From: Actinokineospora xionganensis
Lineage (GTDB): Bacteria; Actinomycetota; Actinomycetes; Mycobacteriales; Pseudonocardiaceae
Assembly: GCF_014323725.1 (NCBI RefSeq)
Contig: NZ_JABVED010000001.1
Span: 106,505 to 170,504 of the forward strand
Length of the DNA stretch: 64,000 nucleotides
Reading direction: 5' to 3'
Position numbers and translations under genes: made by a program. The notes below the pieces were generated by a model that worked only from the letters and a program-made list of their open reading frames with translations, made no database searches and was not told where the DNA came from. Positions 2,542 to 21,629 of the stretch are shown piece by piece (position 1 is the first letter of the stretch; the number at the start of each line of letters is the position of its first letter).

Positions 2542-2555
2542 GAAGGAGAACTGTC

Positions 2556-4766
2556 ATGGCCCCCACCGGCTACGACCTCGGCCTCGGCCTGTCCGAGGAA
2601 CACCTGGCGCTCGCCGATTCCGTGCGCGGATTCGCCGACCGCCACCTCAACGCCGACGTGCGGCGTGCCGCGGTGGACGCCAAAGCCGAGAGCCTCCCCC
2701 CGTTCTGGGGTGAGTTGGCCGGGCAGGGCCTGCTCGGGCTGCACGTTCCCGAGGAACACGGCGGCCAAGGCGCGAGCCTGCTCGAACTGGCCGTCGCCTT
2801 GGAGGTACTCGGCCGGGCCGCGCAGCCCGGGCCGCTGCTCCCGACAGTCCTCGCCTCGGCGCTGCTCGTCGCGGCCGACGCCAAGGCCGGAGCGGAGTTG
2901 CTCCCAGGGCTGGCGGACGGGTCGCGCACGGCCGGTGTCGGGCTGGCCGATCCGCTCGACGGTCGGGAGACCGGCTCGGAGGTCACCGTGTCCGGCTCGA
3001 CGGTCGGCGTGCTCGGTGGAGCGGTCGCCGATGTGCTCCTGCTGCCCGTGCGGCTCAGTTCGGGTGTGCGGTGGGTCGTGCTCGACAAGGCCGACCTCAA
3101 GGTCCGCGAGCAGGACAGCATGGACGTGATCCGCCGCTGCGCGCTCGTCGAGGCCGTCGATGTGGTGGTGCCCGCCGAGCGGGTGCTCGACCGTCTCCCC
3201 GCCGAGCGGGTCCGCTCGATCGCGGCGGTGATCTTCGGCGCCGAAGCGGTGGGTGTCGCCTCGTGGTGCGTATCGACAGCGGCGGAGTACGCCAAGGTGC
3301 GGGTCCAGTTCGGCAGGCCGATCGGCCAGTTCCAAGGCGTCAAGCACAAGTGCGCGGCTATGGGGATCGAGCTGGAGCGCGCGCGGGCCGTCGTCTGGGA
3401 CGCCGCCCGGGCGCTTGACTCGCGGGCCGAGCCCGCCGCCGCCGACTTCGCCGCCGCGGTGGCGGGCGTGGTCGCACCCGACGCGGCCGTGCGCTGCGGC
3501 GCCGACTGCATCCAGGTGCTCGGCGGCATCGGCTTCACCTGGGAGCACGACGCCCACCTGTACTACCGCCGCGCGTTGACCCTGCGCGGACTCCTTGGTC
3601 GCAGTTCAGAGTGGACCGACAGCGTGGCCAGGTACGCGTTGAGCGGAGTCACCCGGCCTGTCGCCATCGACCTGCCCGAGGGCAGCGAGGCGATCCGCGA
3701 GTCGGTGCGCGCCGAACTGGCCGAGATCGCCGAACTGGGTCCCGACGAGCAACTCGTCGCGCTGGGCGATGGCGGCTGGGTGCAGCCGCACCTGCCCCGC
3801 CCGTACGGTCGCGACGCAGGCCCGCTCGAACAGGTCGTCATCGGCGAGGAGACCAAGCGGGCGGGCATCCAGATGCCCGAACTGCTCATGGGCGGCTGGG
3901 CCGTCCCACCGATCGTCGCCTACGGCACGGAAGAGCAGAAGCAGCGCGTCGTCGTGCCCACCCTGCGCGGTGAGGTCGTGTGGTGCCAGCTGTTCTCCGA
4001 GCCGGGCGCGGGCTCCGACCTGGCCTCGCTGACGACGAAGGCCGAACGGGTCGACGGCGGCTGGAAGCTCAACGGCCAGAAGATCTGGACCACCGTGGCC
4101 CAGTTCTCCGACTGGGCGATGCTGATCGCCCGCACCGACCCGGCCGCGCCCAAGCACGAGGGCATCACGTACTTCATCCTCGACATGGCAACCCCGGGCG
4201 TCACGGTGCGCCCACTGCGCGAGGCCACCGGCTCCGCACTGTTCAACGAGGTCTTTCTCGATGACGTGTTCGTGCCGGACGACTGCGTGGTCGGCGAGAT
4301 CAACGACGGCTGGACGGTCGCCCGCGCCACCCTGTCCAGCGAGCGCGTCGCCCTCGGCCGAGGCAACGCCTCGTACCCGACCCTCGCCGATCTCTTGCGT
4401 TTCGCCGCCGGCAGGGACCTCGACGCGACCGCCATCCATCGGATCGGCGAGTTCGTCTGCGAGAACCAGGTCCTTGACCTGCTCGGGGCTCGGACGGTGT
4501 TGAAGCAGCTTTCCGGTGCTGACGTCAGCACGACGTCGAGTGTGGGGAAGTTCTTGAGCATGCGGTTCGGGCAGCAGATCGCTGAGTTCTGCCTTGCTGA
4601 GCTGGGGGTTGCCGGGGCGGTGGCGGTGAAGGGGCAGCCGAGCGACAAGTGGATGGATCAGGTGATCGCTTGTCGGGCTATGACGATTTATGGTGGGACC
4701 ACTGAGGTGCAGCTCAATGTGATCGGGGAGCGGATGTTGGGGTTGCCTCGGGACGCTGATCGCTGA
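2556..4766 (+). CDS. Fused two-domain acyl-CoA dehydrogenase (FadE34/FadE6 type)
   Basis: A 736-residue protein, about twice the length of a normal acyl-CoA dehydrogenase, made of two tandem domains (about 10-360 and 365-736). The second keeps the FAD loop FSEPGAGSD and the NGQKIWTT and IYGGTTEVQ segments; the first lacks the SEPGAGSD loop but has GGIGFTWEHDAHLYYRR. Mycobacterial FadE6, FadE22 and FadE34 share this layout, in which one FAD site serves the pseudo-dimer. It would make the 2-enoyl-CoA used by the MaoC enzyme. The ATG at 2556 follows AAGGAG. The last ~280 bases shift to G/T-ending codons. Substrate is inferred only from neighbours. Confidence 0.88.
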   Translation: MAPTGYDLGLGLSEEHLALADSVRGFADRHLNADVRRAAVDAKAESLPPFWGELAGQGLLGLHVPEEHGGQGASLLELAVALEVLGRAAQPGPLLPTVLASALLVAADAKAGAELLPGLADGSRTAGVGLADPLDGRETGSEVTVSGSTVGVLGGAVADVLLLPVRLSSGVRWVVLDKADLKVREQDSMDVIRRCALVEAVDVVVPAERVLDRLPAERVRSIAAVIFGAEAVGVASWCVSTAAEYAKVRVQFGRPIGQFQGVKHKCAAMGIELERARAVVWDAARALDSRAEPAAADFAAAVAGVVAPDAAVRCGADCIQVLGGIGFTWEHDAHLYYRRALTLRGLLGRSSEWTDSVARYALSGVTRPVAIDLPEGSEAIRESVRAELAEIAELGPDEQLVALGDGGWVQPHLPRPYGRDAGPLEQVVIGEETKRAGIQMPELLMGGWAVPPIVAYGTEEQKQRVVVPTLRGEVVWCQLFSEPGAGSDLASLTTKAERVDGGWKLNGQKIWTTVAQFSDWAMLIARTDPAAPKHEGITYFILDMATPGVTVRPLREATGSALFNEVFLDDVFVPDDCVVGEINDGWTVARATLSSERVALGRGNASYPTLADLLRFAAGRDLDATAIHRIGEFVCENQVLDLLGARTVLKQLSGADVSTTSSVGKFLSMRFGQQIAEFCLAELGVAGAVAVKGQPSDKWMDQVIACRAMTIYGGTTEVQLNVIGERMLGLPRDADR

Positions 4767-5345: not shown

Positions 5346-5960
5346 GTGGGTCGAGAGAGTGCCGGGGCGGTGCTCGGCGCGAACATCCGCGCGCTGCGGA
5401 CGGAGTTGGGCCTTTCGCTCTCGGAGCTGGCGCGGCGTTCGGAGATCGCGAAAGGCACGCTCTCACAGTTGGAGAACGGCGCGGGCAACCCGACCATCGA
5501 CACAGTGTTCAGTCTTTCGAACGCGCTTCGCGTCCCGGTCTCGTCCCTGCTGACCGAGCAGTCGAAGCCCGGGGTCGTGCTCGTCCGCTCGGCCGGGCTC
5601 GACGTGCTCAGCAGCAACGCGGTCGACCTGCGGCTGCTGCGCCGACTGGACCTGGTCGAGACGGTCATGGAGGTCTACGACCAGCGGGTGCGCCCCGGCG
5701 AGGTCCAGCAGTCCGCCGGACACCCGGGGTACGAACATGTCGTGGTCACGTCCGGCGTGCTCAGGGTCGGTCCGATCGCCGAGCCGTACGTGCTCGAACC
5801 TGGAGATTACGTGTGTTTCCCGGGTCATCTCCCGCACCTGTACGAGACGGTCGAGGGTCCGGTGACCTCCGTGCTGATGCTGCAGTACCCGGTGGACGCC
5901 GGGACCACCCCGATGGCCGGTTCCTGCGCGGTGTCGAGCGCGGCCCGACCCCAGGGTTGA
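5346..5960 (+). CDS. XRE-family regulator with C-terminal cupin domain
   Basis: A 204-residue regulator. The N-terminal helix-turn-helix (about residues 10-65) contains LSLSELARRSEIAKGTLSQLENG; the C-terminal cupin (about 110-180) contains the PG-x5-DY-x2-FPGHLPH core expected to bind a small ligand. The GTG start at 5346 follows GGGAGG at 5335-5340. It lies directly upstream of, and in the same direction as, the D-hydroxyproline dehydrogenase genes, separated by a hairpin and a 20-base palindrome that overlaps a -10-like element. I infer that it controls the hydroxyproline operon, with a pathway intermediate as likely ligand. Confidence 0.85.
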   Translation: MGRESAGAVLGANIRALRTELGLSLSELARRSEIAKGTLSQLENGAGNPTIDTVFSLSNALRVPVSSLLTEQSKPGVVLVRSAGLDVLSSNAVDLRLLRRLDLVETVMEVYDQRVRPGEVQQSAGHPGYEHVVVTSGVLRVGPIAEPYVLEPGDYVCFPGHLPHLYETVEGPVTSVLMLQYPVDAGTTPMAGSCAVSSAARPQG

Positions 5961-5984
5961 CGTTCAGGGCTTCGCCCTTTAACG
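5961..5984 (+). terminator. Hairpin after the XRE gene
   Basis: Immediately after the stop at 5960, CGTT-C-AGGGC-TTC-GCCCT-TT-AACG forms a compact stem-loop (AGGGC/GCCCT with outer CGTT/AACG). It could attenuate read-through from the regulator gene into the catabolic operon, or act as a second regulator-binding element. There is no long T tract. Confidence 0.45.
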
Positions 5985-5990
5985 TCGCCG

Positions 5991-6010
5991 GTGTTCACTT
6001 TAATGAACAC
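5991..6010. promoter_or_regulatory. Palindromic operator of the hydroxyproline operon
   Basis: GTGTTCACTTTAATGAACAC is a perfect palindrome outside its centre: arms GTGTTCA and TGAACAC, spacer CTTTAA. It contains a -10-like TTTAAT at 5999-6004 and ends just before the GGAGG ribosome site (6012-6016) of the first catabolic gene. Occupancy would block transcription initiation. The adjacent XRE-cupin regulator is the most likely binder. Confidence 0.6.
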
Positions 6011-6024
6011 TGGAGGCGACGCGC

Positions 6025-7194
6025 GTGCATTCGGACGTGGTGGTGGTGGGCGCCGGCGTCATCGGCGCCGCCTGCGCGCACGCGCTGAGCGTCGCGGGCG
6101 TCCGGGTGACGGTGCTCGACCGCGGCGCCCCCGCCTCGGCCACGACCGCGTCCGGTGAGGGCAACGTCCTGGTGTCGGACAAGGCGCCCGGGCCCGAACT
6201 GGACCTCGCCATGGCGTCCCGGCTGCGCTGGCCGTCGCTGATCGCGTCGCTGCGCGAAGACCTCGGCGCGGGGGCGGAGATCGAGTGGGAGGCCAAGGGC
6301 GGTCTCGTGGTCGCCACCACCGAGGCCGCCGCGCAGCCCCTGCTGGACTTCGCCGCCGCCCAGCGCGCCGTCGGCGTGGAGGCCTGTGCGGTGCCCGCCG
6401 AGCGGGCTCGCGACTTCGAGCCACATCTCACCCCCTCGGTCACAGCGGCCGTGCACTACCCGCAGGACGCGCAGCTGCAACCGGTCCTGGCCGCCTGCGC
6501 GCTGCTCGCGGCCGTCCGCAAGCGCGGCGGCACGGTGCGTTCCGGGGTTGCGGTGTCCGGAGTCGACACCGATGCCGCCGGCCGCGTCCGTGCGGTGCGC
6601 ACCTCCGACGGCGAGGTTGCGTGCGGTGCCGTGATCAACGCCTGCGGCCCGTGGTCCGGCGCCTTCTCCACCGCCGCGGGCGCGCCCATCGCCATCCTGC
6701 CCAGGCGGGGGATAGTCCTGGTCACCGCCGCGCTGCCTGCCACCATCCGGCACAAGGTGTACGACGCCGACTACGTCGGCGCGGTGGCCAGCGGCGACGC
6801 CGACCTGCAGACCTCCAGCGTGGTCGAGTCGACCCCGGCGGGGCCGGTCCTGATCGGCTCGAGCAGACAGCGGGTGGGCTTCACCGACCACCTCGAAGTC
6901 GCCGTCCTGCGAGAACTCGCCCGCAAGGCCGTAGCGCTCTTCCCGATCCTCGCCGAGGTCCCCGTGATGCGCGCCTACGGCGGCTTCCGCCCCTATGCGC
7001 CCGACCACCTGCCCGTCATCGGACCGGACCCGCGCGTCCCCGGCCTCTGGCACGCCACCGGCCACGAGGGCGCGGGCATCGGCCTGGCCGCCGCGACGGG
7101 CAGGCTGATGGCCGAACTGCTGACCGGCGCCCAGCCACACCTCGACCCGGCACCGTTCCGAGTGGACCGCCCGGCTCTCATGGAGGCGGCGTGA
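6025..7194 (+). CDS. D-hydroxyproline dehydrogenase, FAD subunit (DAO family)
   Basis: A 389-residue FAD-dependent oxidoreductase of the D-amino acid oxidase / HcnC group. GAGVIGAACA near residue 9 is the dinucleotide-binding motif and the C-terminal [17 protein letters not shown] is the typical closing helix. In multi-subunit D-hydroxyproline or proline dehydrogenases this chain holds the catalytic flavin and works with a small 2Fe-2S protein and a second flavoprotein, both encoded next. It would oxidise cis-4-hydroxy-D-proline to a pyrroline carboxylate. The GTG start at 6025 follows GGAGG. No twin-arginine signal is seen, so the complex is probably cytoplasmic or membrane-associated. Confidence 0.87.
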   Translation: MHSDVVVVGAGVIGAACAHALSVAGVRVTVLDRGAPASATTASGEGNVLVSDKAPGPELDLAMASRLRWPSLIASLREDLGAGAEIEWEAKGGLVVATTEAAAQPLLDFAAAQRAVGVEACAVPAERARDFEPHLTPSVTAAVHYPQDAQLQPVLAACALLAAVRKRGGTVRSGVAVSGVDTDAAGRVRAVRTSDGEVACGAVINACGPWSGAFSTAAGAPIAILPRRGIVLVTAALPATIRHKVYDADYVGAVASGDADLQTSSVVESTPAGPVLIGSSRQRVGFTDHLEVAVLRELARKAVALFPILAEVPVMRAYGGFRPYAPDHLPVIGPDPRVPGLWHATGHEGAGIGLAAATGRLMAELLTGAQPHLDPAPFRVDRPALMEAA

Positions 7195-7289
7195 ACGCCC
7201 AGTGGACGCACCCCGGCCGCCACACGTCACCGCCCGAGAACTCACCCGCGACCGTGGCGGGCCTGATCCTGGTGGAGGCGGCGTGAACG
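7181..7289 (+). repeat. 17-bp direct repeat spanning two gene junctions
   Basis: TGGAGGCGGCGTGAACG occurs at 7181-7197 and again at 7273-7289, 92 bases apart. The first copy carries the stop of the flavoprotein gene, the second the ribosome site and GTG start of the ferredoxin-like gene. Between them is a 31-codon open frame (GTG at 7191, stop at 7286) that ends in the same residues as the flavoprotein. It looks like a small duplication; the mini-ORF probably encodes nothing functional but may relay ribosomes. Confidence 0.7.
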
Positions 7290-7549
7290 TCACCGTCGAC
7301 GGTGAGCCCCAGCCCGCCCGCGCGGGCCAGACCGTGGCCGCGCTCCTCCTCGCCGCCGCCCGGGTGTCCTGGCGGGACACCCGGGCGGGCGGCAGGCCCC
7401 GGGGCCTGTTCTGCGGCATCGGCGTGTGCTTCGACTGCCTGGTCGTGGTCAACGGCATCCCCGATGTCCGCGCCTGTCAGCGTGTCGTCGCCGACGGTGA
7501 CGAGATCCGCACCCAGCACGGCGCCGAACTGCCGGAGGCACGGTCATGA
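7283..7549 (+). CDS. D-hydroxyproline dehydrogenase, 2Fe-2S subunit (HcnA-like)
   Basis: An 88-residue ferredoxin-like protein. The cluster motif CGIGVCFDC with a distal Cys in DVRACQR matches the small (2Fe-2S)-binding subunit of HcnABC-type dehydrogenases. I start it at GTG 7283, preceded by GGAGG (7274-7278); a frame-matched GTG at 7202 would add a proline-rich extension with no ribosome site. Its stop overlaps the next start (ATGA at 7546). Role: passing electrons between the two flavoprotein subunits. Confidence 0.85.
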   Translation: MNVTVDGEPQPARAGQTVAALLLAAARVSWRDTRAGGRPRGLFCGIGVCFDCLVVVNGIPDVRACQRVVADGDEIRTQHGAELPEARS

Positions 7550-8895
7550 CCAGACGTGTCGTGGTCGTGGGGGCCGGGCCCGCGGGCGTCAGCGCCGCCC
7601 TCGCGGCCGCCGACGCGGGCGCCCAGGTCACCCTGGTGGACTCCGCGCCCACCGTCGGCGGCCAGTTCCACCGGCAGCCCGCGGGGGCCGGGCCGGACAA
7701 GGTCCCCGGCGGCAGCAGGCTCGTCGAGCACCCAAGGGTCCGCCTGCTGACCGACACCGTCGTCTGGACGGTCGAGCCACTCCACAGCGGACACCTCGTC
7801 CACGTCCGCACCGGCCAAGCCGACGGACCGGGCCGCCATGGCGAGGCACTGACCGCCGACGCCCTCGTCCTCGCCACCGGCGCCTACGACCGTGCCCTGC
7901 CGTTCCCCGGCTGGGACCTTCCCGGCGTCGTCACCGCGGGCGCCGCCCAAGCCCTCGCGAAGGGTCAGGGGATCGCGATCGGCGACCGCGTGCTCGTCGC
8001 GGGGACCGGTCCCTTCCTGCTGCCGGTCGCGCAGTCCCTGGTCGGGGTCGGCGCCCAAGTCGTGGAAGTGCTGGAGGCCAATGGCGGCATCCGCGGCTGG
8101 ACACCGTCCGCGCTCGTCGCCGGCCGGGGCAAGCTCGCCGAACTCGCGGGCTACGCCCGGCTGCTCGCCACTCACCGCGTTCCCTACCGGACCAGGCGAA
8201 CCGTGATCGCGGCTCACGGCGAGGACCGGGTCACCTCGGTGACCACCGCCGCGCTCGACCGTGAATGGCGCGTCAAGCCGGGGACCGAGCGTCGCCTGCC
8301 GGTCGACGCGGTCTGCGTGGGATTCGGCTTCACCCCGCAACTCGAACTCGCCGTCTCCGCGCGCTGCGAGCTGGTCGACGGGTTCGTCGAGGTGACACCC
8401 ACTCAGGAGACCTCGGTGCCCGGCGTGTTCGCCGCGGGCGAGCTGACCGGTATCGGCGGCGCCGACCTCGCCGCGGCGGAGGGCACCATCGCGGGCGCGT
8501 GCGCCGCGGGCCAGGCGATTCCCGAGGCGGCACTACGCAAAGCGCGCCGAGGCCGGACCTTCGCCGCCGGGCTGGCCAACGCCTACCCGGTCCGCCCGGG
8601 CTGGCGGACCTGGCCCGCCGACGACACCTTGGTCTGCCGGTGCGAGGAAGTCACCCTCGGCGCCCTGCGCACGGCCGCACGCGAGCGCGACGCGCTCGGT
8701 GTGCGGTCGCTCAAGCTGACCAGCCGCGTGGGTCTTGGCCTGTGCCAGGGCCGTGTCTGCGGACGCAACGCGGCCGAGTTGGCCGCCGGGTACACCGGCG
8801 GCCACTACGACCCCAGCGACACGGCCAGACGGCCGATCGCGGCACCACTGCGCCTCGGCGAACTCGCCGAGGACCCCGAGAAGGAGAACACGTGA
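7546..8895 (+). CDS. D-hydroxyproline dehydrogenase, NAD(P)/FAD-binding subunit (HcnB-like)
   Basis: A 449-residue pyridine-nucleotide-disulfide oxidoreductase-type flavoprotein. GAGPAGVSAA is at residue 9, GTGPFLLPVA (second dinucleotide site) near 163, and a BFD-like 2Fe-2S module at the C-terminus has CRCEE and CQGRVC. This is the large electron-transfer subunit of D-hydroxyproline/proline dehydrogenases. It overlaps the ferredoxin-like gene by four bases and the deaminase gene by four bases, indicating one transcript. The electron acceptor (quinone or oxygen) cannot be told from sequence. Confidence 0.87.
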   Translation: MTRRVVVVGAGPAGVSAALAAADAGAQVTLVDSAPTVGGQFHRQPAGAGPDKVPGGSRLVEHPRVRLLTDTVVWTVEPLHSGHLVHVRTGQADGPGRHGEALTADALVLATGAYDRALPFPGWDLPGVVTAGAAQALAKGQGIAIGDRVLVAGTGPFLLPVAQSLVGVGAQVVEVLEANGGIRGWTPSALVAGRGKLAELAGYARLLATHRVPYRTRRTVIAAHGEDRVTSVTTAALDREWRVKPGTERRLPVDAVCVGFGFTPQLELAVSARCELVDGFVEVTPTQETSVPGVFAAGELTGIGGADLAAAEGTIAGACAAGQAIPEAALRKARRGRTFAAGLANAYPVRPGWRTWPADDTLVCRCEEVTLGALRTAARERDALGVRSLKLTSRVGLGLCQGRVCGRNAAELAAGYTGGHYDPSDTARRPIAAPLRLGELAEDPEKENT

Positions 8896-9812
8896 CCCAG
8901 GAACGGCTCGACGGCGTGATCGTCGCCACCGCGCTGCCCTATGCCGAAGACCCGAAGGCGCCCGCGGGCCTGCGCCCGGACCTCGACCGCTACGCCGAGC
9001 ACTGCCAGTGGCTGGTGGCCAACGGCTGCCGCGGTGTCGGGCCGAACGGCTCACTCGGCGAGTACTCCTCGCTGACCGACGACGAGCGCAGGCAGGTCGC
9101 CCGTACCGCCATCGAGTCGGTCAAGGGCGCGGGCATCGTCGTTGTCGGCGTGCACGGCGCGGGCGCCCACCAGGCGCGGCACTGGGCCGAACTGGCCGCC
9201 GAGGACGGCGCCGACGGCGTGCTCTGCCTCCCGCCCACCATGTACCGGGCCAACCACGGCGAGGTGATCCACCACTTCACGGAGGTGGCGAAGGCCGGGT
9301 TGCCGATCATGGTCTACAACAACCCGATCGACACCAAGGTCGACCTGACCCCCGAACTGGTCGCCGAGATCGCCCAGATCGACAACGTCGTGGCGGTCAA
9401 GGAGTTCTCCGGCGACGTGCGCCGGGTGCTGCAGATCCGCGAGGCCGCCGACATCGCGGTGATCGCCGGGGCCGACGACGTCGTCCTGGAGAGCCTGCTG
9501 ATGGGCGCGACCGGCTGGTTCGCCGGGTTCCCCAACGTCTTCCCCGCCGAGTCCGCCCGCCTCTACTCCCTTGCCATGGAAGGCAAACTCGCGGAGGCTC
9601 GGGCACTCTACGAGCCGCTCGTGGCCGCGTTCCGGTGGGACTCGCGCACCGAGTTCGTCCAGTCGATCAAGTTCGGCATGGACGTGGTCGGCCGGTTCGG
9701 CGGACCGTGCCGCCCACCGCGCGGCCCGCTGGCCGACGAGCAGCGCGCCCAGTTGGAGAATGACATGCGCAAGGCCGTCGACTACCTCCACGCGAACCCC
9801 GTGGCGGCGTGA
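8892..9812 (+). CDS. DHDPS-family pyrroline-4-hydroxy-2-carboxylate deaminase
   Basis: A 306-residue Schiff-base class I aldolase-fold protein. The catalytic Lys lies in VVAVKEFSGD, the Tyr in MVYNNP, and the pyruvate-binding loop appears as GPNGSLGEYSSL instead of the GTTGE of true dihydrodipicolinate synthases. In bacterial hydroxyproline pathways this family converts 1-pyrroline-4-hydroxy-2-carboxylate to alpha-ketoglutarate semialdehyde plus ammonia. The flanking epimerase, dehydrogenase and semialdehyde dehydrogenase genes make this assignment far likelier than lysine synthesis. The GTG start overlaps the upstream stop. Confidence 0.87.
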   Translation: MTQERLDGVIVATALPYAEDPKAPAGLRPDLDRYAEHCQWLVANGCRGVGPNGSLGEYSSLTDDERRQVARTAIESVKGAGIVVVGVHGAGAHQARHWAELAAEDGADGVLCLPPTMYRANHGEVIHHFTEVAKAGLPIMVYNNPIDTKVDLTPELVAEIAQIDNVVAVKEFSGDVRRVLQIREAADIAVIAGADDVVLESLLMGATGWFAGFPNVFPAESARLYSLAMEGKLAEARALYEPLVAAFRWDSRTEFVQSIKFGMDVVGRFGGPCRPPRGPLADEQRAQLENDMRKAVDYLHANPVAA

Positions 9813-9813
9813 C

Positions 9814-10815
9814 ATGAGATCCGCCCGGTACTTCAGCGCCGTCGACTCGCACACCGAGGGCATGCCGACCCGGGTGATCACCGGCGGTGTCGGCGTCATC
9901 CCCGGCGCCACCATGTCGGCCCGCCGCGAGCACTTCATGGCCAACCTGGACCACCTGCGCGAGCTGCTGATGAACGAGCCACGCGGGCACTCCGCCATGA
10001 GCGGCGCGATCCTGCAGCCACCGACCCGGCCGGACGCCGACTGGGGCGTGCTCTACATCGAGGTGTCCGGCTGCCTGCCGATGTGCGGGCACGGGACGAT
10101 CGGTGTGGCCACGGTCCTGGTGGAGACCGGCATGGTCGAGGTGACCGAGCCGGTGACCACGGTCCGGCTCGACACCCCCGCGGGCCTGGTCCTCGCGGAG
10201 GTCGCCGTGCGTGACGGCCGCGCGGAGCACGTGACCGTGCGCAATGTCCCCGCGTACGCCCACGAACTCGACGCCACCGTCGACGTCCCCGGCTACGGCG
10301 AGGTGCGCTACGACCTGGCCTACGGTGGGAACTTCTACGCGATCATCCCGCTGGAATCGCTGGGCCTGCCGTTCGACCGCGCCGCCAAGGACCCGATCCT
10401 CACCGCTGGACTGTCCATCATGGACGCCATCAACGTCCGGCGCAGGCCCGTGCACGTCGCCGACCCGAGCATCAGCGGGTGCAAGCACGTCCAGTTCACC
10501 GCGCCGGGCCACGAAGGCAGCCACTCGCGCAACGCGATGGCGATCCACCCCGGCTGGTTCGACCGTTCTCCCTGCGGCACCGGGACTTGCGCCCGGATGG
10601 CCCAGTTGCACGCCCGCGGTGAGCTGAAGCTGGGGGAGGACTTCGTCAACGAGTCCCTCATCGGCACCCGCTTCACCGGCAGGCTGCTCGAGGAGGTCCC
10701 GATCGGCGACCGCCTCGGTGTCCTGCCCACGGTGACCGGCCGCGCCTGGATCACCGGCATGGGCCAGTACCTGCTCGATCCCGAAGACCCGTTCCCCAGG
10801 GGGTTCCAGCTGTGA
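9814..10815 (+). CDS. 4-hydroxyproline 2-epimerase (proline racemase family)
   Basis: A 333-residue proline racemase-fold enzyme. Both catalytic cysteines are present, one in MCGHGTIG and one in SPCGTGTCA, which points to a two-base epimerase or racemase and against the dehydratase branch, where one Cys is Thr. In this operon it would convert trans-4-hydroxy-L-proline to cis-4-hydroxy-D-proline, the substrate of the three-subunit dehydrogenase upstream. The ATG starts one base after the previous stop, and its own stop overlaps the ALDH start. A plain proline racemase is the main alternative. Confidence 0.88.
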   Translation: MRSARYFSAVDSHTEGMPTRVITGGVGVIPGATMSARREHFMANLDHLRELLMNEPRGHSAMSGAILQPPTRPDADWGVLYIEVSGCLPMCGHGTIGVATVLVETGMVEVTEPVTTVRLDTPAGLVLAEVAVRDGRAEHVTVRNVPAYAHELDATVDVPGYGEVRYDLAYGGNFYAIIPLESLGLPFDRAAKDPILTAGLSIMDAINVRRRPVHVADPSISGCKHVQFTAPGHEGSHSRNAMAIHPGWFDRSPCGTGTCARMAQLHARGELKLGEDFVNESLIGTRFTGRLLEEVPIGDRLGVLPTVTGRAWITGMGQYLLDPEDPFPRGFQL

Positions 10816-12182
10816 CCCGAGTCGTGTCCACGTCGCCGCAGCGGCCGTCGGACGTGGTCGCCGACGTGTCGGTGACCGAGCCCGGCGCCGTTCTCGCCGC
10901 CGCGGCCCAAGCCCGTGCCGCGCAACGGGAGTGGTCTTCGGCCGCCCCCGGTGTCCGGGCGGCGGCGCTGTCGGCGGTCGCCCAGGCGGTCGCCGACAAC
11001 GCCGCCGAGTTGGCCGCGCTCGCCGTGCGCGAGGTCGGCAAACCCGCCGCGGAGGCGGCGGGCGAGGTCGCCAGGACCATCGCGCTGCTGCGGTACTACG
11101 CCCAACAGGCGTTCGACCCGATCGGCGAGACCTACCCGACCGGCGCCGGTCTCGGGTTCACCGCGCGCAGGCCGCGCGGGGTGGCCGGGCTGATCACTGC
11201 GTGGAACTTCCCGCTGGCGATCCCGGTGTGGAAGTCCGCCCCCGCCCTGGCCTTCGGGAACGCCGTGCTGATCAAGCCGTCGCCGGACGCCACCGCGTGC
11301 GCCCTGCGGCTGGGCGAGCTGTTCGCCGCCCACCTGCCCGCGGGCCTGTTCTCCGTGCTGCCGGGAGCGGCGGCGACCGGCGCGGCCCTGGTGTCCTGTG
11401 TGGACGCCGTGTCGTTCACCGGATCGGGCGCGGTCGGGCGTGGCATCGCGATCGACGCCGCGCGACAGGGTATCCCCGCCCAGTGCGAGATGGGTGGGCT
11501 CTCGGCGACGATCGTGCTGCCCGACGCCGACCTCGACCGCGCGGCGACCGACATCGCCTACGCGGCGATGGGTTTCGCCGGACAGAAGTGCACCGCGACG
11601 AAGCGCGTGATCGTCGTGGGGGACAGCGGACCGCTGGGTGAGGCGCTCGCGAGCAGGATCGGCGACCTCGGATTCGGCGACCCCGCCGACCCCAAGGTCG
11701 TGGTCGGACCGGTGATCAGCGAACAGGCCCGCGACCGGGTGGCGGACGCGGTGGCCCACGCCCGCGCCGACGGCGGCCAGGTGGTGGCCTGCGGCACGCG
11801 AGCGGGTGACGACGGCTGGTTCGTGGGCCCGACCGTGATCGCCGGGTTGGCGCCGGACGCCGTGCTGAACCACGAAGAGGTCTTCGGCCCGATCGCCACG
11901 CTCACCTCCGTCCTGGATCTCGATGCCGCGTTGGCCATGGCGAACGGCACCGACTACGGGCTGGTCACGGCCATCTACACCGCCGACCTGGACGTCGCCC
12001 TGGCCGCCGCGGACCGCTGCGAGTCGGGGATGGTGAAGGTGAACGCGCCGACCGCGGGCGTCGACTTCCACCTGCCCTTCGGCGGTGAGAAGGACTCCGG
12101 CTACGGCGGCCGCGAACAGGGCAAGGCCGCGGCCGCTTTCTACACCTCCTCCCGCACAGTGCAGATCGGAGCGAACCGGTGA
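10812..12182 (+). CDS. Aldehyde dehydrogenase, probable alpha-ketoglutarate semialdehyde dehydrogenase
   Basis: A 456-residue NAD(P)-dependent aldehyde dehydrogenase. The catalytic Cys lies in GQKCTA, the general base Glu in CEMGG, and the nucleotide loop is FTGSGAVGRGI. The C-terminal FGGEKDSGYGGREQG is typical of the alpha-ketoglutarate-semialdehyde branch. It would complete hydroxyproline breakdown by oxidising 2,5-dioxopentanoate to alpha-ketoglutarate for the TCA cycle. GTG at 10812 overlaps the epimerase stop, and the next gene overlaps its stop. Specificity is inferred from operon context. Confidence 0.87.
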   Translation: MTRVVSTSPQRPSDVVADVSVTEPGAVLAAAAQARAAQREWSSAAPGVRAAALSAVAQAVADNAAELAALAVREVGKPAAEAAGEVARTIALLRYYAQQAFDPIGETYPTGAGLGFTARRPRGVAGLITAWNFPLAIPVWKSAPALAFGNAVLIKPSPDATACALRLGELFAAHLPAGLFSVLPGAAATGAALVSCVDAVSFTGSGAVGRGIAIDAARQGIPAQCEMGGLSATIVLPDADLDRAATDIAYAAMGFAGQKCTATKRVIVVGDSGPLGEALASRIGDLGFGDPADPKVVVGPVISEQARDRVADAVAHARADGGQVVACGTRAGDDGWFVGPTVIAGLAPDAVLNHEEVFGPIATLTSVLDLDAALAMANGTDYGLVTAIYTADLDVALAAADRCESGMVKVNAPTAGVDFHLPFGGEKDSGYGGREQGKAAAAFYTSSRTVQIGANR

Positions 12183-13585
12183 CCCGCCCCGCGCGACGCG
12201 ACCCCAGCAGGCTCGTCGAGGCGACCGGCTTCCGCGACTTCGTCAGCTCGGGTTGGGGACCCGGCGACCGGGAGGTGCGCCTGCCCGGCGGCGCCGCCCA
12301 GGCCGCACGGGACCACCGGCAGCGGCTCACCGATGCCCTGCCGGGCAAGCGAATCGTGGTCGCGGCAGGCTGGGCGCCGGTACGGGCCAACGACACCGAC
12401 TACGGCTTCCGCCCGGACAGCGACTTCGCGTGGCTGACCGGCTGCAACGCCGAGGGCGCGGTGCTCGTGCTGCGGCCGGGGCACGACGCGGAACTGTTCC
12501 TGCGTGAGCCCGCGGGCCCGGACGAACCCGACTTCTTCGCGAACGCCCGCGACGGCGAACTCTGGATCGGCCCGTCACCTGGGCTCACCGAGTGGTCTGA
12601 GGCGCTCGGCCTGCGGTGCCGGTCGCTGGAGGAACTGCCGTCCGCGGTCCGGGGCAGGCTCCCGGAGATGCTCACGACCCCAGGTGTGGACCCGCTTCTG
12701 GACGCCTTGGTCCCCGGCGCGCCCTGCGGAGAGCTGCGCCGCACGCTCGCGGAGTTGCGGCGGATCAAGGACGACTGGGAGATCGGCCAGCTGCGCCACG
12801 CGGTCGACGCGACCATCCGTGGTTTCGAGGACGTGGCCGGGGAACTCCCCACCGCGGTCAAGGGCGGCGGTGAGCGGTGGTTGCAGGGCACTTTCGATCG
12901 CCGGGCCCGAACCGAGGGCAACGGCGTCGGCTACGCCTCGATCGTCGCGGCCGGTCCGCACGCGCCCGTGCTCCACTGGGTGCGCAACGATGGCGCGGTG
13001 CCGGAGGAGTCGCTGCTGCTGCTCGACGCGGGTGTCGAGGTCGACACCCTCTACACCGCCGACATCACCCGCACACTTCCCGTGTCGGGGGAGTACAGCC
13101 AGGTCCAGCGCCAGGTCTACGACCTTGTGCTGACGGCCCACCACGTCGCGCTGGCCGAAGTCCGCCCCGGCGCGGGCTACGGCGCGTTCCACACCGCCGC
13201 GATGCGGGTGCTGGCACAGGGCCTGCACGACTGGGGCTTGCTGCCCGTGTCGGTGGACGAGTCCCTGGAGATCGGCAACCAGCACCACCGCCGCTACATC
13301 GTATGCGGGGTCGGGCACTTCCTCGGTCTGGATGTGCACGACTGCGCCCATTCCTCGGCGGAGATGTACCACGACGGGGTGCTCGAGGAGGGCATGGCGC
13401 TGGCGGTGGAGCCAGGTCTTTACTTCCACCCCAACGATCTGACCGTCCCACCGGAGCTGCGTGGGATCGGTGTGCGGATCGAGGACAACGTCGTGGTGAC
13501 CGCTCAGGGCATCGAGGTGTTGTCCGCGGCATTGCCGACCACGCCCGACGAGTTGGAGGCGTGGGTTCGCGGCTGTCAGGGCTGA
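12179..13585 (+). CDS. M24 metallopeptidase, Xaa-Pro aminopeptidase type
   Basis: A 468-residue protein with an N-terminal AMP_N domain (about 40-180) and a C-terminal pita-bread peptidase. Metal ligands are visible as Asp in LLLDAGVE, Asp in YTADITRT, His in GVGHFLGLDVHD, Glu in AVEPGLY and Glu in RIEDN. The family removes residues next to proline, which fits the turnover of Gly-Pro-Hyp-rich collagen peptides. As last gene of the hydroxyproline operon (GTG overlaps the ALDH stop) it links peptide trimming to Hyp oxidation. Its 3' end overlaps the convergent LysR gene by 10 bases. Confidence 0.87.
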   Translation: MTRPARRDPSRLVEATGFRDFVSSGWGPGDREVRLPGGAAQAARDHRQRLTDALPGKRIVVAAGWAPVRANDTDYGFRPDSDFAWLTGCNAEGAVLVLRPGHDAELFLREPAGPDEPDFFANARDGELWIGPSPGLTEWSEALGLRCRSLEELPSAVRGRLPEMLTTPGVDPLLDALVPGAPCGELRRTLAELRRIKDDWEIGQLRHAVDATIRGFEDVAGELPTAVKGGGERWLQGTFDRRARTEGNGVGYASIVAAGPHAPVLHWVRNDGAVPEESLLLLDAGVEVDTLYTADITRTLPVSGEYSQVQRQVYDLVLTAHHVALAEVRPGAGYGAFHTAAMRVLAQGLHDWGLLPVSVDESLEIGNQHHRRYIVCGVGHFLGLDVHDCAHSSAEMYHDGVLEEGMALAVEPGLYFHPNDLTVPPELRGIGVRIEDNVVVTAQGIEVLSAALPTTPDELEAWVRGCQG

Positions 13586-14556
13586 GTGATGGGCTGCGGC
13601 TGGTTCAGCCTTGGGTGAACTTCCGGGTGCGCGAGCCACCACGGGCGGAACACCGGACTCTCCAGGGCGTGGTGGGTGTAGGCGGCGGCGGAGGCCTCGT
13701 GGATTCGGTCGACCTGGCTCTCCGTCAGCCTTTCCCGCCGCCAGGCCAGGACCAGGCGCATCCGCATCGGCTCGTCGGCGAGCGGGCGGACGACCAGGCC
13801 GGGGCAGCCGATCGACGTCGGCTCGACCAGTTGCACCGCCTGGCCTGACCGGATCAGCTGCCTGCCACCGCCGCTGGGCACCTCGAACCGGATCCGGGGC
13901 ACGAAACCCGCCTTGCGGCAGGCCGCGCGCAACGTGGCCAGCGATCCGTCGTCGGCGCCTGGCGGGCAGATCCAGGAGTCGTCGGCCAGATCCGCCAAGT
14001 GAATCTCCGGCAGACCCGCGGACGCGTGGGTCTGCGCGACCGCCACGAACACCGGGACACGCGGCACCAGGGTCCGGTACATCACCTGCGGGCCAAGCGG
14101 AACGTCCTTGTCGTCGGACATGCCGATGAGGGCCGCGTCGAGCCTGCCGTGGGTGAGCGAGTGGGCGAGCATCGTGCTCGACGGCTCCACCTGCAGCCTG
14201 ACCTCGGCTTCCGGCAGCACCGCGTCCAGCCGGGAGACCAGGGTGGCGACGCACTCCATGTGCGCCGAACCCAGGCGCAGCACGGATTGGGCGTTGGGGC
14301 GCACCAGGTCGGCGCTGAACGCGTCGAGCTCGACCAGCAGTACCCGGGCCCGGCCCAGGACGCGTTCGCCCAGGGCGGTGGGCTCGGTTCCGGTGCGGCT
14401 GCGGAGGAACAGCTGCCCGCCCACCGACCGCTCGACGCGCTGCAGCAGCAGGGTGAGCGACGGCTGGGACACTCCGAGGGCGGACGCGGCCTGGGAGAGG
14501 CTGCCGGTCTCCGCGATAGCGCAAATGGCCCTCAGGTGCCGGAACTCCAGGTCCAT
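13576..14556 (-). CDS. LysR-family transcriptional regulator
   Basis: A 326-residue LysR protein. The winged helix-turn-helix at the N-terminus reads AETGSLSQAASALGVSQPSL and is followed by an effector-binding domain. I start at ATG 14556 (MDLEFRHL); a TTG two codons earlier is possible. TATAGT on the minus strand at 14570-14565 lies only 8 bases from this ATG, so the mRNA may be leaderless. The gene is convergent with the hydroxyproline operon and divergent from the collagenase, so it is placed to control either; the collagenase promoter is the nearer target. Confidence 0.85.
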   Translation of the reverse strand: MDLEFRHLRAICAIAETGSLSQAASALGVSQPSLTLLLQRVERSVGGQLFLRSRTGTEPTALGERVLGRARVLLVELDAFSADLVRPNAQSVLRLGSAHMECVATLVSRLDAVLPEAEVRLQVEPSSTMLAHSLTHGRLDAALIGMSDDKDVPLGPQVMYRTLVPRVPVFVAVAQTHASAGLPEIHLADLADDSWICPPGADDGSLATLRAACRKAGFVPRIRFEVPSGGGRQLIRSGQAVQLVEPTSIGCPGLVVRPLADEPMRMRLVLAWRRERLTESQVDRIHEASAAAYTHHALESPVFRPWWLAHPEVHPRLNQPQPITQP

Positions 14557-14707
14557 AAGCAAAGACTATAGAGCCAAATCATTACCAGCGGATCCCTGTC
14601 GGTGTGACTCTCCCTCAATGCGCGATGACGTTGCCACCCAAGGAGGATCTCCGTTCGCGCGAGTCATCCACCCTGCACACCGAATCCCGCACCGGAGACA
14701 CAACGTG

Positions 14708-17155
14708 ATGAGTTCTCATCCGCGACGAGGGTTGATCCTGCTGACCCTGCTCGCCACTTTGAGCTTACCCGCCCCGACCGCCGCCGCCGCCGCACCTGAG
14801 CGCCTGCCCGCCCCCGCCGCGGCAACGCCCCCGCCGGTCGCCGAGTCCCACGGCACGGCCCGTGAGTCGAGGACACCGACCCCGCTCAAGGACCGCGGTC
14901 CCATCCCGGCCACCGCCACGTGCGACAGCGGTGTGCAGTCCGCCGCGGCCTGCGACCCGGCGGGGTTCGCCAGCCGGACGGGGGTCGCCCTGGTCCAGCA
15001 CATCCGCTCGTCGACCCTGGACTGCGTCAACTCGCTGTTCACCCTCACCGGAAGCACGGCCACCGGAGCCTTCCGTGAACCCCAGATGGTGAGCGTCGCG
15101 TACGGACTGCGGGACAACGCCACCGCCTACCCCGGCGACAACTCCACCGCGACCGGACAGCTCGTCCTCTACTTGCGCGCCGGATACTTCGTCCAGTGGT
15201 ACAACCCCGATGTGGTCGGGAACTACGGTCCGACCTTGCGCACCGCCATCCAGACGGCGCTGGACACCTTCTACGGCAACGCGCGTGCGTTCACCGTCAG
15301 CGAGGCCAACGGCGCCACGCTGTCCGAGGCGGTGACCCTGATTGACAGCGCGCGGGAGAACGCGCGCTACCTGTGGGTCGTGCGTCGCCTGCTTTCCAGC
15401 TACACCAGCGCTTATGACGCCTACCCGTCGATGGTGTCGGCGGTGAACGGTGTCTACACAGTACTCTTCCGCGGTCACTACCTGCCCGCGTTCGTCTCCG
15501 CGGTGCAGAGCGACCCGGCGGTCATCGACTCGCTCAACGCTTTCGCGTCGGCACACCTGAACCTGCTCGGCACCAACCGTGCGTACCTGACGACCAACGC
15601 GGGCCGGGAACTGAGTCGCTTCCTGCAGCACGACGCGCTGCGGGCCATGGTTCGACCGCTCGCCAAGGGCCTACTCGACCGCAGCTCGATCACCGGCCCG
15701 ACCGGCGGGCTGTGGATCGGTGTCGCGGAGATGGCGGACGCCTACGACAAGGCCAACTGCGCCTACTACGACGTGTGCGACCTGGCGGCCCGGCTCAACG
15801 CCGCGATCCTGCCGATCACCCACACCTGTTCGTCGGCGCTGCGGATCCGCGCGCAGGCCATGACCGCGGCGGAACTGTCGGCCTCCTGCACCAGCCTGGC
15901 CAACCAGGACGCGTTCTTCCACCGCGTGGTCAACGACCCAGGCCCGGTCGCGAACGACCGCAACACCACCCTGGAGGTGGTGGTCTACGACTCAAGCGCG
16001 GACTACAAGACCTACGCGGGCACGATGTTCGACATCGACACCAACAACGGCGGCATATACATCGAGGGCGATCCCGCCGCCGCCGGCAACGTCGCGCGCT
16101 TCATCGCCTACGAGGCGCAATGGCTGCGACCGACGTTCGAGGTGTGGAACCTCAACCACGAGTACACCCACTACCTCGACGGCCGCTACAACATGTTCGG
16201 CGACTTCCCGACCACCGTCAGCACCCCCACGGTGTGGTGGATCGAGGGCGTCGCGGAGTACGTCTCCTGGTCGTACCGCAACCTGACGAACACCGCGGCC
16301 ACCGCCGAGGCGGCCAAGAAGACCTACCCGCTGAGCACCCTGTTCGACACCACCTACGACCACGACTCGACCCGGGTGTACCGCTGGGGCTACCTTGCCG
16401 TCCGGTACATGATGCAGTCGCACCCGGCTGACATGACCACCGTCCTCGGCCACTACCGCGCGGGCAACTACACCGCGGCCCGCACGTACCTGAAGAACAC
16501 GATCGGCACCCGTTACGACGCCGACTGGAACACCTGGCTCACCGCCTGCGCGGCGGGCGACTGCGGCAGCGGCAACCGCCCGCCGACGGCCGACTTCACC
16601 CACACCGTGACCGGCCTGACCGCCGCGTTCACCGACCGCTCCACCGACCCGGACGGCACGGTCGCGACCCGCCGCTGGGATTTCGGTGACGGCGGCACCG
16701 CCACCGCCACCGCCCCGACCCGTACCTACACGGCGGCGGGCACCTACACCGTCCGCCTCACCGTCACCGACGACAAAGGCGCCTCCGCGACCACCACCCG
16801 CTCGGTCACCGTGACGGCGGCGCTTCCTGAATGCACCAATACCGACATACGCGCGCTGGGCAAGAACTGCCAGCGCGCCAACCGATCCGCGGCGAACTCC
16901 GGGTACGACTACATGTACTTGCTGGTTCCCGCGGGCACCACCCGACTACGAATCACGTCGACTGGCGGATCAGGCAACTGCGACCTGTACTACAGCCGGA
17001 CCGGCTGGGCCACCACGACCACGGCCACACAGAGCTCGGTCACCAGCACCAACAACGAGTCCGTCGTGGTGGCGAACCCACCCTCGGGCTATGTGTACAT
17101 CAGCTTGATGGGATCGACCGCCTGCTCGGGTGTCACCGTTGCCACGAGGTATTAG
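14708..17155 (+). CDS. Secreted M9-type microbial collagenase
   Basis: An 815-residue exported metalloprotease. It has an N-terminal signal peptide (hydrophobic stretch ending in APTAAAAA), an N-terminal M9 domain (about 70-380), then a gluzincin catalytic domain with HEYTH at about residue 484 and the third zinc ligand in IEGVAEY about 30 residues on. A PKD domain follows (NRPPTADF to TRSVTVTA, about 625-705), then a pre-peptidase C-terminal domain (about 710-815), both known collagen-binding modules. ATG 14708 follows GGAG at 14694-14697. It would supply Hyp-rich peptides to the catabolic operon beside it. Confidence 0.9.
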   Translation: MSSHPRRGLILLTLLATLSLPAPTAAAAAPERLPAPAAATPPPVAESHGTARESRTPTPLKDRGPIPATATCDSGVQSAAACDPAGFASRTGVALVQHIRSSTLDCVNSLFTLTGSTATGAFREPQMVSVAYGLRDNATAYPGDNSTATGQLVLYLRAGYFVQWYNPDVVGNYGPTLRTAIQTALDTFYGNARAFTVSEANGATLSEAVTLIDSARENARYLWVVRRLLSSYTSAYDAYPSMVSAVNGVYTVLFRGHYLPAFVSAVQSDPAVIDSLNAFASAHLNLLGTNRAYLTTNAGRELSRFLQHDALRAMVRPLAKGLLDRSSITGPTGGLWIGVAEMADAYDKANCAYYDVCDLAARLNAAILPITHTCSSALRIRAQAMTAAELSASCTSLANQDAFFHRVVNDPGPVANDRNTTLEVVVYDSSADYKTYAGTMFDIDTNNGGIYIEGDPAAAGNVARFIAYEAQWLRPTFEVWNLNHEYTHYLDGRYNMFGDFPTTVSTPTVWWIEGVAEYVSWSYRNLTNTAATAEAAKKTYPLSTLFDTTYDHDSTRVYRWGYLAVRYMMQSHPADMTTVLGHYRAGNYTAARTYLKNTIGTRYDADWNTWLTACAAGDCGSGNRPPTADFTHTVTGLTAAFTDRSTDPDGTVATRRWDFGDGGTATATAPTRTYTAAGTYTVRLTVTDDKGASATTTRSVTVTAALPECTNTDIRALGKNCQRANRSAANSGYDYMYLLVPAGTTRLRITSTGGSGNCDLYYSRTGWATTTTATQSSVTSTNNESVVVANPPSGYVYISLMGSTACSGVTVATRY

Positions 17156-17562: not shown

Positions 17563-17580
17563 TTGCGGAGAGGGTGTCGC

Positions 17581-18432
17581 GTGAAGCTGCTTCGAGTGGG
17601 ACCGGCCGGGGAGGAACGGCCCGCTGTCCTGGATGAGTCGGGCGCATTGCTCGATCTGTCCGGGATCGTCTCCGACATCGACGGGGCGTTCCTTGCAGGC
17701 GGTGGCGTCGACCGGGTCCGTGCCGCCCTCGATGTCGGGGGGCTGCCAGTGCTGCCCGAGGGCCTGAGGATCGGCCCGCCGCTCGCGCGGCCCGGCAAGA
17801 TCGTGTGCGTCGGGCTGAACTACTCCGACCACGCCGAGGAGTCCGGCATGGCCAAGCCCGCCGAGCCGGTGCTGTTCATGAAGGCGCCCAATACGGTGGT
17901 CGGTCCTGACGACCAGGTCCTGATCCCGCGCGGCAGCCGCAAGACCGACTGGGAGGTCGAACTCGCGGTCGTCATCGGCGAGACCGCCCGCTATCTGACC
18001 GGCCACGCGGATGCCCTGGCCCGCGTGGCCGGTTATGCCATCTCCAACGACGTCTCCGAGCGGGAGTTCCAGCTCGAGCGCGGCGGGCAGTGGGACAAGG
18101 GGAAGTCCTGCGAGACGTTCAACCCGCTGGGCCCTTGGGTGGTCACCGCCGAGGAGGTGGCCGACCCGCAGTCGCTCGGGATGCGGCTGTGGGTCAACGG
18201 CACGCCGAGACAGGACGGCAACAGCAAGAACATGATCTTCGCCGTCGCCGAGATCGTCCGGTACATCTCCCAGTTCATGGTGCTCGAACCCGGCGACGTG
18301 ATCAACACGGGCACGCCCGCCGGGGTCGCGTTCGGTCTGCCCGACCCGAAGCCGTACCTGCGGGCGGGCGACGTGGTCGAGGTCGAGATCGACGGACTCG
18401 GGCGCCAGCGCCAGGAAGTGGGGCAGGCATGA
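17581..18432 (+). CDS. FAH-family 2,4-diketo-3-deoxy-L-fuconate hydrolase
   Basis: A 283-residue fumarylacetoacetate hydrolase-fold protein. Metal ligands appear in [10 protein letters not shown] and in ISNDVSERE, with KAPNTVVGP before them. In the non-phosphorylative L-fucose route, a member of this family hydrolyses 2,4-diketo-3-deoxy-L-fuconate to pyruvate and L-lactate. It is the first gene of an operon with L-fuconate dehydratase and an SDR, and the lactate genes lutABC lie downstream, so the product logic fits. GTG 17581 follows GGAGAGG (17567-17573). Ureidoglycolate lyase is a name often given to such proteins but does not fit here. Confidence 0.85.
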
Positions 18433-20533: not shown

Positions 20534-20560
20534 TTCCCTGCCATCGAAACCGAGGAAACA

Positions 20561-21604: not shown

Positions 21605-21629
21605 CAGGCCAGGACAAGAGGAGTCCGTG

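Follow-up and report, generated by a model that had tools for sequence, protein, structure and literature searches.

A collagenase gene beside a hydroxyproline operon in Actinokineospora xionganensis: a probable collagen-utilisation locus of two separately regulated modules

Introduction

When a gene for a secreted collagenase lies directly beside an operon for hydroxyproline (Hyp) catabolism, are both switched by one regulator, or does each half of the locus answer to its own? The question is raised by a block of ten genes (positions 5346-17155) in a 64,000-nucleotide stretch of DNA, hereafter the window, from the soil actinobacterium Actinokineospora xionganensis (family Pseudonocardiaceae, class Actinomycetes; RefSeq assembly GCF_014323725.1, contig NZ_JABVED010000001.1). 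An earlier note on this DNA had described the block as a single, co-inherited "collagen-to-TCA" (tricarboxylic acid cycle) regulon. Our analysis favours, with a probability of about 0.78, a collagen-utilisation locus of two separately regulated modules: module A, a Hyp operon with an XRE-cupin regulator, and module B, a collagenase with a LysR regulator.

The general idea of a route from collagen to the TCA cycle is not new, as bacterial precedents show (here and below as described in parts of the cited papers). In Streptomyces coelicolor, genes in the same dehydrogenase-deaminase-epimerase order are needed for growth on L-Hyp, which is abolished by deletion of the epimerase gene SCO6293; these genes are repressed, together with an unlinked M9 collagenase gene, by the GntR-type regulator HypR, and the regulon is induced by L-Hyp (PMC6608401). 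In Alteromonadales, secreted collagenases and proline peptidases belong to HypR regulons (PMC5343134), and a 21-kb collagen utilization gene cluster has been described in Colwellia (PMC7883544). Collagen-utilisation clusters and HypR regulons containing collagenases are thus already published. Among the matches listed in the open-licence literature (titles and starts of abstracts), none described a linked cluster from actinobacteria or an XRE-cupin regulator of Hyp genes, and no linked cluster was found in the available part of a study of collagenases from Streptomyces-like reads in Neanderthal bone (PMC3643900).

Layout of the locus

The 6.8-Mb genome (70 contigs) contains a single M9 gene. 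The ten genes of the block, all with Pfam matches over cut-off and with refined starts, encode an XRE-cupin regulator, the products of a seven-gene operon, a LysR regulator and the M9 collagenase, and all of them were located where the earlier note had placed them. The operon runs in the order DAO, 2Fe-2S, Pyr_redox_2/BFD, DHDPS, Pro_racemase, Aldedh and aminopeptidase P, and its junctions are tight or overlapping, as had also been noted (7546/7549, 8892/8895, 9812/9814, 10812/10815 and 12179/12182). The lysR gene (13576..14562, minus strand) shares 10 bp with the end of the aminopeptidase P gene and is transcribed divergently from the collagenase gene; it adjoins M9 genes in other genera too.

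The collagenase (14708..17155, plus strand) has a signal peptide, recognized by eye, followed by M9_N (220 bits), Peptidase_M9 (412 bits), PKD (PKD_4, 67.6 bits) and PPC (32.9 bits) domains. It carries the HExxH motif as HEYTH together with the downstream Glu, and H484, E485, H488, E513 and E517 are invariant across 12 aligned sequences. The closest solved chains are collagenases, with 7wss at the top (E 1.2e-108).

Predicted control sites of the hydroxyproline operon

The XRE-cupin protein (5346..5960, plus strand; HTH_3 and Cupin_2) is the predicted local repressor of the operon. A predicted promoter, TTGACG-17-TAACGT, was read from the sequence at 5957..5985 (plus strand), and TTGAC was found by eye at the corresponding place in 21 of 27 operons. 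Five bases past the -10 box lies the putative operator O1 (5991..6010, plus strand), a perfect 7-bp inverted repeat with a 6-bp spacer, GTGTTCA-CTTTAA-TGAACAC. The pattern GTTCR-N6-YGAAC is present between the regulator and DAO genes in all 27 XRE-cupin operons, the window included. The arrangement is that of an XRE-cupin local repressor, with an XRE helix-turn-helix and a cupin domain encoded beside the target and a palindrome at its promoter.

A second putative operator, O2 (GTTCAGTCTTTCGAAC, 5507..5522, plus strand), lies inside the regulator gene. The Ser56 codon within it is AGT in 24/24 genes that keep the site, compared with 9/366 for the remaining Ser codons in those genes; the Leu codon that follows is TTG in 17/24 compared with 48/543 other Leu codons. 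This codon bias points to selection acting on the DNA rather than on the protein. The 24 regulator genes all carry the family code; the regulators of L036, L070 and L076 were excluded from the count as distant, and of these L036 also has AGT but has lost the palindrome.

Besides the window, an XRE-cupin regulator gene adjoins the Hyp operon in 26 of the 51 fetched Hyp loci, and a GntR gene takes this place in 22; no locus has both, and the three with neither (L053, L069 and L081) are probably cut or out of range. Two genomes show mixed control, with an XRE-cupin gene at the Hyp operon and a GntR gene adjoining a separate M9 gene (L070/L071 of G568 and L076/L077 of G288).

The strict pattern GTTCA-N6-TGAAC occurs at 14 places in the window's genome and the backward control at one; the core of O1 is the most AT-rich, and nearly all of the others overlap long open frames. 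A looser pattern gave 12 distinct places, O1 and O2 included. Seven of the ten others were inspected (two on contig C69 and one on C70 were left out), of which most overlap open frames, while the place on C12 belongs to a longer hairpin and that on C17 is at a contig end. A wider XRE-cupin regulon was considered and not adopted, as no transporter or other target was found among the operator-pattern places inspected.

A LysR box at the collagenase and aminopeptidase P genes

A LysR-type box, ATA-N9-TAT, lies over the lysR start codon between lysR and the collagenase gene (14555..14569, neither strand assigned) and is the sole match in the window. In loci with this LysR, the box was found within 450 bp upstream of 28/34 M9 and 9/11 aminopeptidase P genes (37/45 regions), compared with 4/70 M9 and 0/50 aminopeptidase P genes (4/120 regions) in loci without a counted LysR. 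It was present in 0/83 regions upstream of DAO and XRE genes and in 1/31 upstream of transporter binding-protein genes. These counts leave out the window, loci L001, L006, L083 and L096, and the duplicates L114, L116, L119 and L145.

A divergent lysR has its box in common with the M9 or aminopeptidase P gene, so the telling cases are those in which lysR is not divergent from M9. Three such genomes (G592, G595 and G596) carry no box at lysR; instead, it precedes M9 itself by 134-150 bp, with starts inferred by alignment. Genomes G100 and G110 have separate boxes at M9 and at aminopeptidase P. These positions indicate that LysR most likely controls both collagenase and aminopeptidase P. The aminopeptidase P gene in the window has no LysR box of its own, and it has most likely been transferred from LysR control to the XRE-cupin operon. 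A second aminopeptidase P gene in the same genome (C23:149810-151207, L104), 75% identical to the cluster copy, likewise has no box within 450 bp upstream.

Predicted enzymes of the hydroxyproline operon

All seven operon genes are on the plus strand. The first encodes a DAO-type protein (6025..7194; PF01266, 219 bits), the predicted flavin adenine dinucleotide-binding subunit of D-Hyp dehydrogenase, of which the closest solved chains are glycine oxidases; the gene order is that of S. coelicolor SCO6289-6293 (PMC6608401). The 2Fe-2S subunit (7283..7549, in a frame open from 7202; Fer2_4, 82 bits) follows, and its gene adjoins DAO in 52/53 loci, the 53rd being a 3-kb piece from the window's own genome. 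The third subunit (7546..8895) combines Pyr_redox_2 with a BFD 2Fe-2S domain and is soxA-like, below the NCBIfam cut-off. Next come a predicted DapA-type deaminase (8892..9812; PF00701, DHDPS, 167 bits), whose position matches that of SCO6292 (PMC6608401), and a proline racemase family protein (9814..10815; Pro_racemase, 430 bits) with the Cys/Cys motifs MCGHG and SPCGTG, the predicted 4-hydroxyproline 2-epimerase. The latter shares 69-73% identity with its counterparts in the Streptomyces-like operons L043-L058 ("Streptomyces-like" denotes group code f21 g71, a label taken from the gene order of named Streptomyces) and scores 362.4 bits against NF010578 (4-hydroxyproline epimerase), short of the cut-off of 376. 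The aldehyde dehydrogenase (10812..12182; Aldedh, 421 bits) is probably a 2-oxoglutarate semialdehyde dehydrogenase, its best NCBIfam match being the alpha-ketoglutarate semialdehyde (KGSA) dehydrogenase family at 362.8 bits with a cut-off of 770. Xaa-Pro aminopeptidase P (12179..13585; AMP_N and M24, the latter at 150 bits) is the product of the final gene; no signal peptide was seen in it by eye.

By Pfam family and gene order, an epimerase, a D-Hyp dehydrogenase, a deaminase for Δ1-pyrroline-4-hydroxy-2-carboxylate (Pyr4H2C) and a KGSA dehydrogenase therefore stand together, the gene content of an epimerase-pathway operon, and the order DAO-2Fe-2S-Pyr_redox-DapA-epimerase is repeated in many genomes. 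One relative is reduced: L016 (G010, 7977-11841) has a 58-aa DAO match and no Pyr_redox match before DapA-epimerase-ALDH (aldehyde dehydrogenase), and it retains the operator palindrome. Eight other loci (L047, L054, L056, L069, L080 and, in the named set, L133, L149 and L153) contain a second racemase-family gene (32-37% identity) adjoining an ornithine cyclodeaminase (OCD)-like gene; these are other actinobacterial collagen or Hyp clusters, possibly with a 3-hydroxyproline or proline branch. The pair resembles a trans-3-hydroxyproline branch, but the motifs of the second racemase are Cys/Cys, like those of the epimerase, which makes such an assignment no more than a possibility.

Co-occurrence, linkage and history

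The two gene sets were compared in a family sample of 200 genomes and a class sample of 394. PF05544, the epimerase family, was present in 22/22 M9 genomes of the family sample compared with 65/178 without M9 (Fisher 2e-9, relatedness ignored), and over cut-off in 28/28 M9 genomes of the class sample compared with 80/366 without (Fisher 1e-17, relatedness ignored). Genome G110 was counted as PF05544-positive though its match is a 104-aa remnant, and G302 and G555, whose M9 matches are below cut-off, were counted as M9-less. The collagen-to-2-oxoglutarate gene set of the earlier note is thus borne out by gene content and co-occurrence, though not as a single regulon.

Physical joining is a different matter. 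In 17/27 other M9 genomes of the class sample, M9 is linked to the racemase gene, in 16 of them within about 16 kb and in G530 over a contig edge; split by group code, the linked genomes are 16/23 Streptomyces-like, 1/1 f42 and 0/3 f19, and the class-sample M9 genomes are mostly Streptomyces-like (23/27). Within Actinokineospora (16 genomes), M9 is present in 8 and the epimerase family in 10, including all 8 M9 genomes, but only three of these 8 (the window's genome, G591 and G190), which form one clade, have the two linked. Both gene sets thus occur in every sampled M9 genome, but their physical union is the exception in this lineage, being found in 3/8 M9 genomes of the genus and in 0/18 other M9 genomes of the family sample. 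The comparison of gene order that had been suggested gave a similarly divided answer: the Hyp operon order recurs and linkage is common in the class, but not in the family (2/22).

In G591 the cluster proteins are 90-98% identical to those of the window, and there is no aminopeptidase P gene between the aldehyde dehydrogenase gene and lysR. The aminopeptidases P of the window and G190 form a clade with an unlinked copy from G008; in six other Actinokineospora, the in-operon copies lie in a different clade, among unlinked copies. As the in-operon proteins fall into two separate clades, aminopeptidase P was probably recruited to the operon on two occasions, though replacement of the gene or its departure from the operon may be an alternative history. 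Elsewhere in the family, aminopeptidase P is located with LysR and M9. The collagenase and Hyp halves appear, from these gene orders, to have come together in only one branch of the genus.

On a broader scale, in a tree built from one fetched M9 protein for each of 48 loci (G350, G499, G515, G170 and G182 left out), the linked state changes seven times, and at least three changes, gains or losses, are forced by well-supported branches. Two divergent M9 lineages, with about 60% and 25% identity to the M9 protein of the window, both adjoin Hyp operons, which suggests that M9 and the Hyp operon were joined at least twice.

Among 79 named M9 loci, 25 have aminopeptidase P within 10 kb, 23 have GntR, 20 have LysR and 17 have a Dpp-type binding protein. 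This set comprises the best 79 matches to a 12-sequence profile of the window M9 type, shares at least four genomes with the other samples, and includes some loci that end at contig ends. Genome G114, in which about 19 kb separate M9 from a 37% racemase relative and no Hyp operon is present, was not counted as linked. Two other loci differ in composition. In G100 (L005/L006), two M9 genes about 14 kb apart occur with LysR and aminopeptidase P in a larger collagen island, and between them lies a Dpp-type binding protein gene whose product is 50% identical to that of a Streptomyces-like cluster. In G110 (L020), LysR, M9 and aminopeptidase P are present, yet the sole racemase-family match is the 104-aa remnant, apparently a collagenase module without a Hyp pathway.

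The block itself contains no transporter among its ten genes by Pfam, as the earlier note had said; in relatives, genes for a Dpp-type peptide ABC transporter often adjoin the collagenase gene. A Dpp-type importer was sought in the window's genome and not adopted: the binding protein of a Streptomyces-like cluster has only a 38% relative there, on contig C23, so no uptake system could be assigned. The next ABC genes begin at 20561, after FAH, enolase-type and SDR genes. These belong to a separate set directly 3' of the collagenase gene (17563-23147: an FAA hydrolase, an enolase-superfamily enzyme, an SDR and sugar-type ABC genes), which may serve a sugar acid, for example from L-fucose. On the other side of the block, a single 740-aa frame (2544-4766) contains two tandem acyl-CoA dehydrogenase units and is, we assume, FadE34-like.

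Alternative explanations

The single regulon of the earlier note would have one signal and one regulator, XRE-cupin or LysR, acting on both halves, as HypR does in S. coelicolor, where it represses the Hyp operon and an M9 collagenase (PMC6608401), and in Alteromonadales, where HypR regulons include collagenases and proline peptidases (PMC5343134). The window has no O1-like site at the collagenase gene and no LysR box at the Hyp operon; two patterns are used, with no site shared, and across loci the box is missing from all 83 DAO and XRE upstream regions. Nor does HypR itself seem to be the common regulator: none of the ten genes encodes a GntR/FCD protein, an XRE-cupin gene standing in its place, and no close HypR was found in the window's genome, where the best GntR protein is 27% identical to the query, a GntR from a Streptomyces-like cluster that is not the Hyp-adjacent GntR of its locus. 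We regard a single regulon as unlikely. Slightly less likely again is an operon serving plant cell-wall Hyp or D-proline, with a collagenase acting on other proteins. The presence of PF05544 in M9-less genomes (65/178 and 80/366) shows that the family is used without M9, and the epimerase falls slightly under its NCBIfam cut-off; set against this, the deaminase and aldehyde dehydrogenase in the operon suit a 4-hydroxyproline route, and every sampled M9 genome has PF05544. Least likely of all, and improbable in our view, is that the collagenase and operon are chance neighbours in one clade, which would fit linkage in only 3/8 M9 genomes of the genus and 2/22 in the family sample. Both gene sets co-occur, however, and a rough expectation, taking about 33 kb out of 8 Mb for each pair of genes, gives well under one linked genome; the repeated operon order and the position of M9 near the racemase gene in 17/27 other class genomes argue that the observation is not chance.

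Several observations also weigh against a locus of two separately regulated modules, or against parts of it. Linkage in the family sample is confined to the window's genome and G190 among 22 M9 genomes, with none among 18 outside the genus, and only 10/79 named loci (9/32 Streptomyces and 1/4 Micromonospora) have two or more Hyp core genes within 10 kb of M9. All counts ignore relatedness, which inflates every one of them. All ten proteins fall short of the NCBIfam cut-offs, NF010578 coming closest, so the reaction names depend on protein families, the order of the genes and the precedent in S. coelicolor. The O2 palindrome is absent in the three distant XRE-cupin operons, L036 (same family), L070 and L076, and DNA looping between O1 and O2 is not supported, as their spacing ranges from 395 to 1592 bp with unclear phasing (Rayleigh p 0.08-0.42 over five periods). 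Many of the counted LysR boxes are common to a divergent lysR, and the one box before a transporter binding-protein gene is among only nine such regions in LysR loci. The box is missing despite LysR at M9 in L005 (the second M9 copy), L066, L126, L147, L151 and L176 and at aminopeptidase P in L002 and L128; conversely, M9 in L117, L121, L129 and L158 has the box with no LysR passing the threshold, though LysR matches exist in L121, L129 and L158.

Proposed mechanism

From the genes, their order and co-occurrence, and the conserved sites, we infer the reactions, the ligands, the sign of regulation, the pairing of proteins with sites and the role of O2. In module B, the M9 collagenase would be secreted under the control of LysR and would cut collagen or gelatin outside the cell. 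Peptides would enter through a transporter encoded elsewhere and, in module A, aminopeptidase P would trim Xaa-Pro peptides inside the cell alongside other peptidases. L-Hyp would then be converted to D-Hyp by 4-hydroxyproline epimerase, to Pyr4H2C by the three-subunit D-Hyp dehydrogenase, to 2-oxoglutarate semialdehyde by the DapA-type deaminase and to 2-oxoglutarate by the semialdehyde dehydrogenase. The XRE-cupin protein would repress module A from O1, just past the -10 box, and would probably restrain its own transcription through O2, until a pathway metabolite sensed by the cupin domain lifts repression. That it is a repressor is inferred from the position of the site and by analogy with XRE-cupin inhibitors of Pseudomonas (PMC7901475). 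LysR would control collagenase and, in relatives, aminopeptidase P, a peptidase that in the window would have been handed to the Hyp operon.

We lean, with less confidence than for the two modules, towards a further interpretation in two parts. XRE-cupin proteins of Pseudonocardiaceae, and of some Streptomyces-like genomes, would be a new class of Hyp regulator that replaces GntR/HypR and acts through an operator at the promoter, joined in most Pseudonocardiaceae by another within the regulator gene itself. In several actinobacterial families, a LysR dedicated to collagen breakdown would control M9 and aminopeptidase P, the latter having switched repeatedly from one of these two controls to the other. 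The comparisons indicate that, across Actinomycetes, selection keeps collagen breakdown paired with Hyp use even as the order of the genes and their regulators change, and they mark aminopeptidase P as the link from extracellular collagenolysis to intracellular Hyp use. Two DNA sites, each with its likely regulator, are concrete enough to be tested.

Comparison with known systems

The S. coelicolor HypR regulon (SCO6289-6293 and SCO5912) shares with the window the dehydrogenase-deaminase-epimerase order and an M9-PKD-PPC collagenase in the same physiological set, but has GntR/HypR, an unlinked collagenase gene and, in the available part of its description, no KGSA dehydrogenase gene nearby (PMC6608401); the window has XRE-cupin and LysR regulators, and its collagenase, aldehyde dehydrogenase and aminopeptidase P genes are adjacent. 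The cluster of Colwellia BB5 likewise unites M9, D-Hyp dehydrogenase, epimerase, deaminase, a ketoglutarate-forming dehydrogenase and proline peptidases at one locus; it differs in its TonB and MFS transport, cyclophilin and PutR (PMC7883544), none of which is in the window locus, where other regulators are found. The HypR regulons of Alteromonadales similarly bring secreted collagenases and proline peptidases under Hyp control, but there a single GntR protein governs the whole set (PMC5343134), whereas the window has two regulators of other families. The XRE-cupin local repressors of Pseudomonas resemble that of the window in combining an XRE helix-turn-helix with a cupin domain, in lying near their target and in having palindromic sites in target promoters; the available main text of that study does not contain the word hydroxyproline (PMC7901475), and the window differs further in its conserved site inside the regulator gene.

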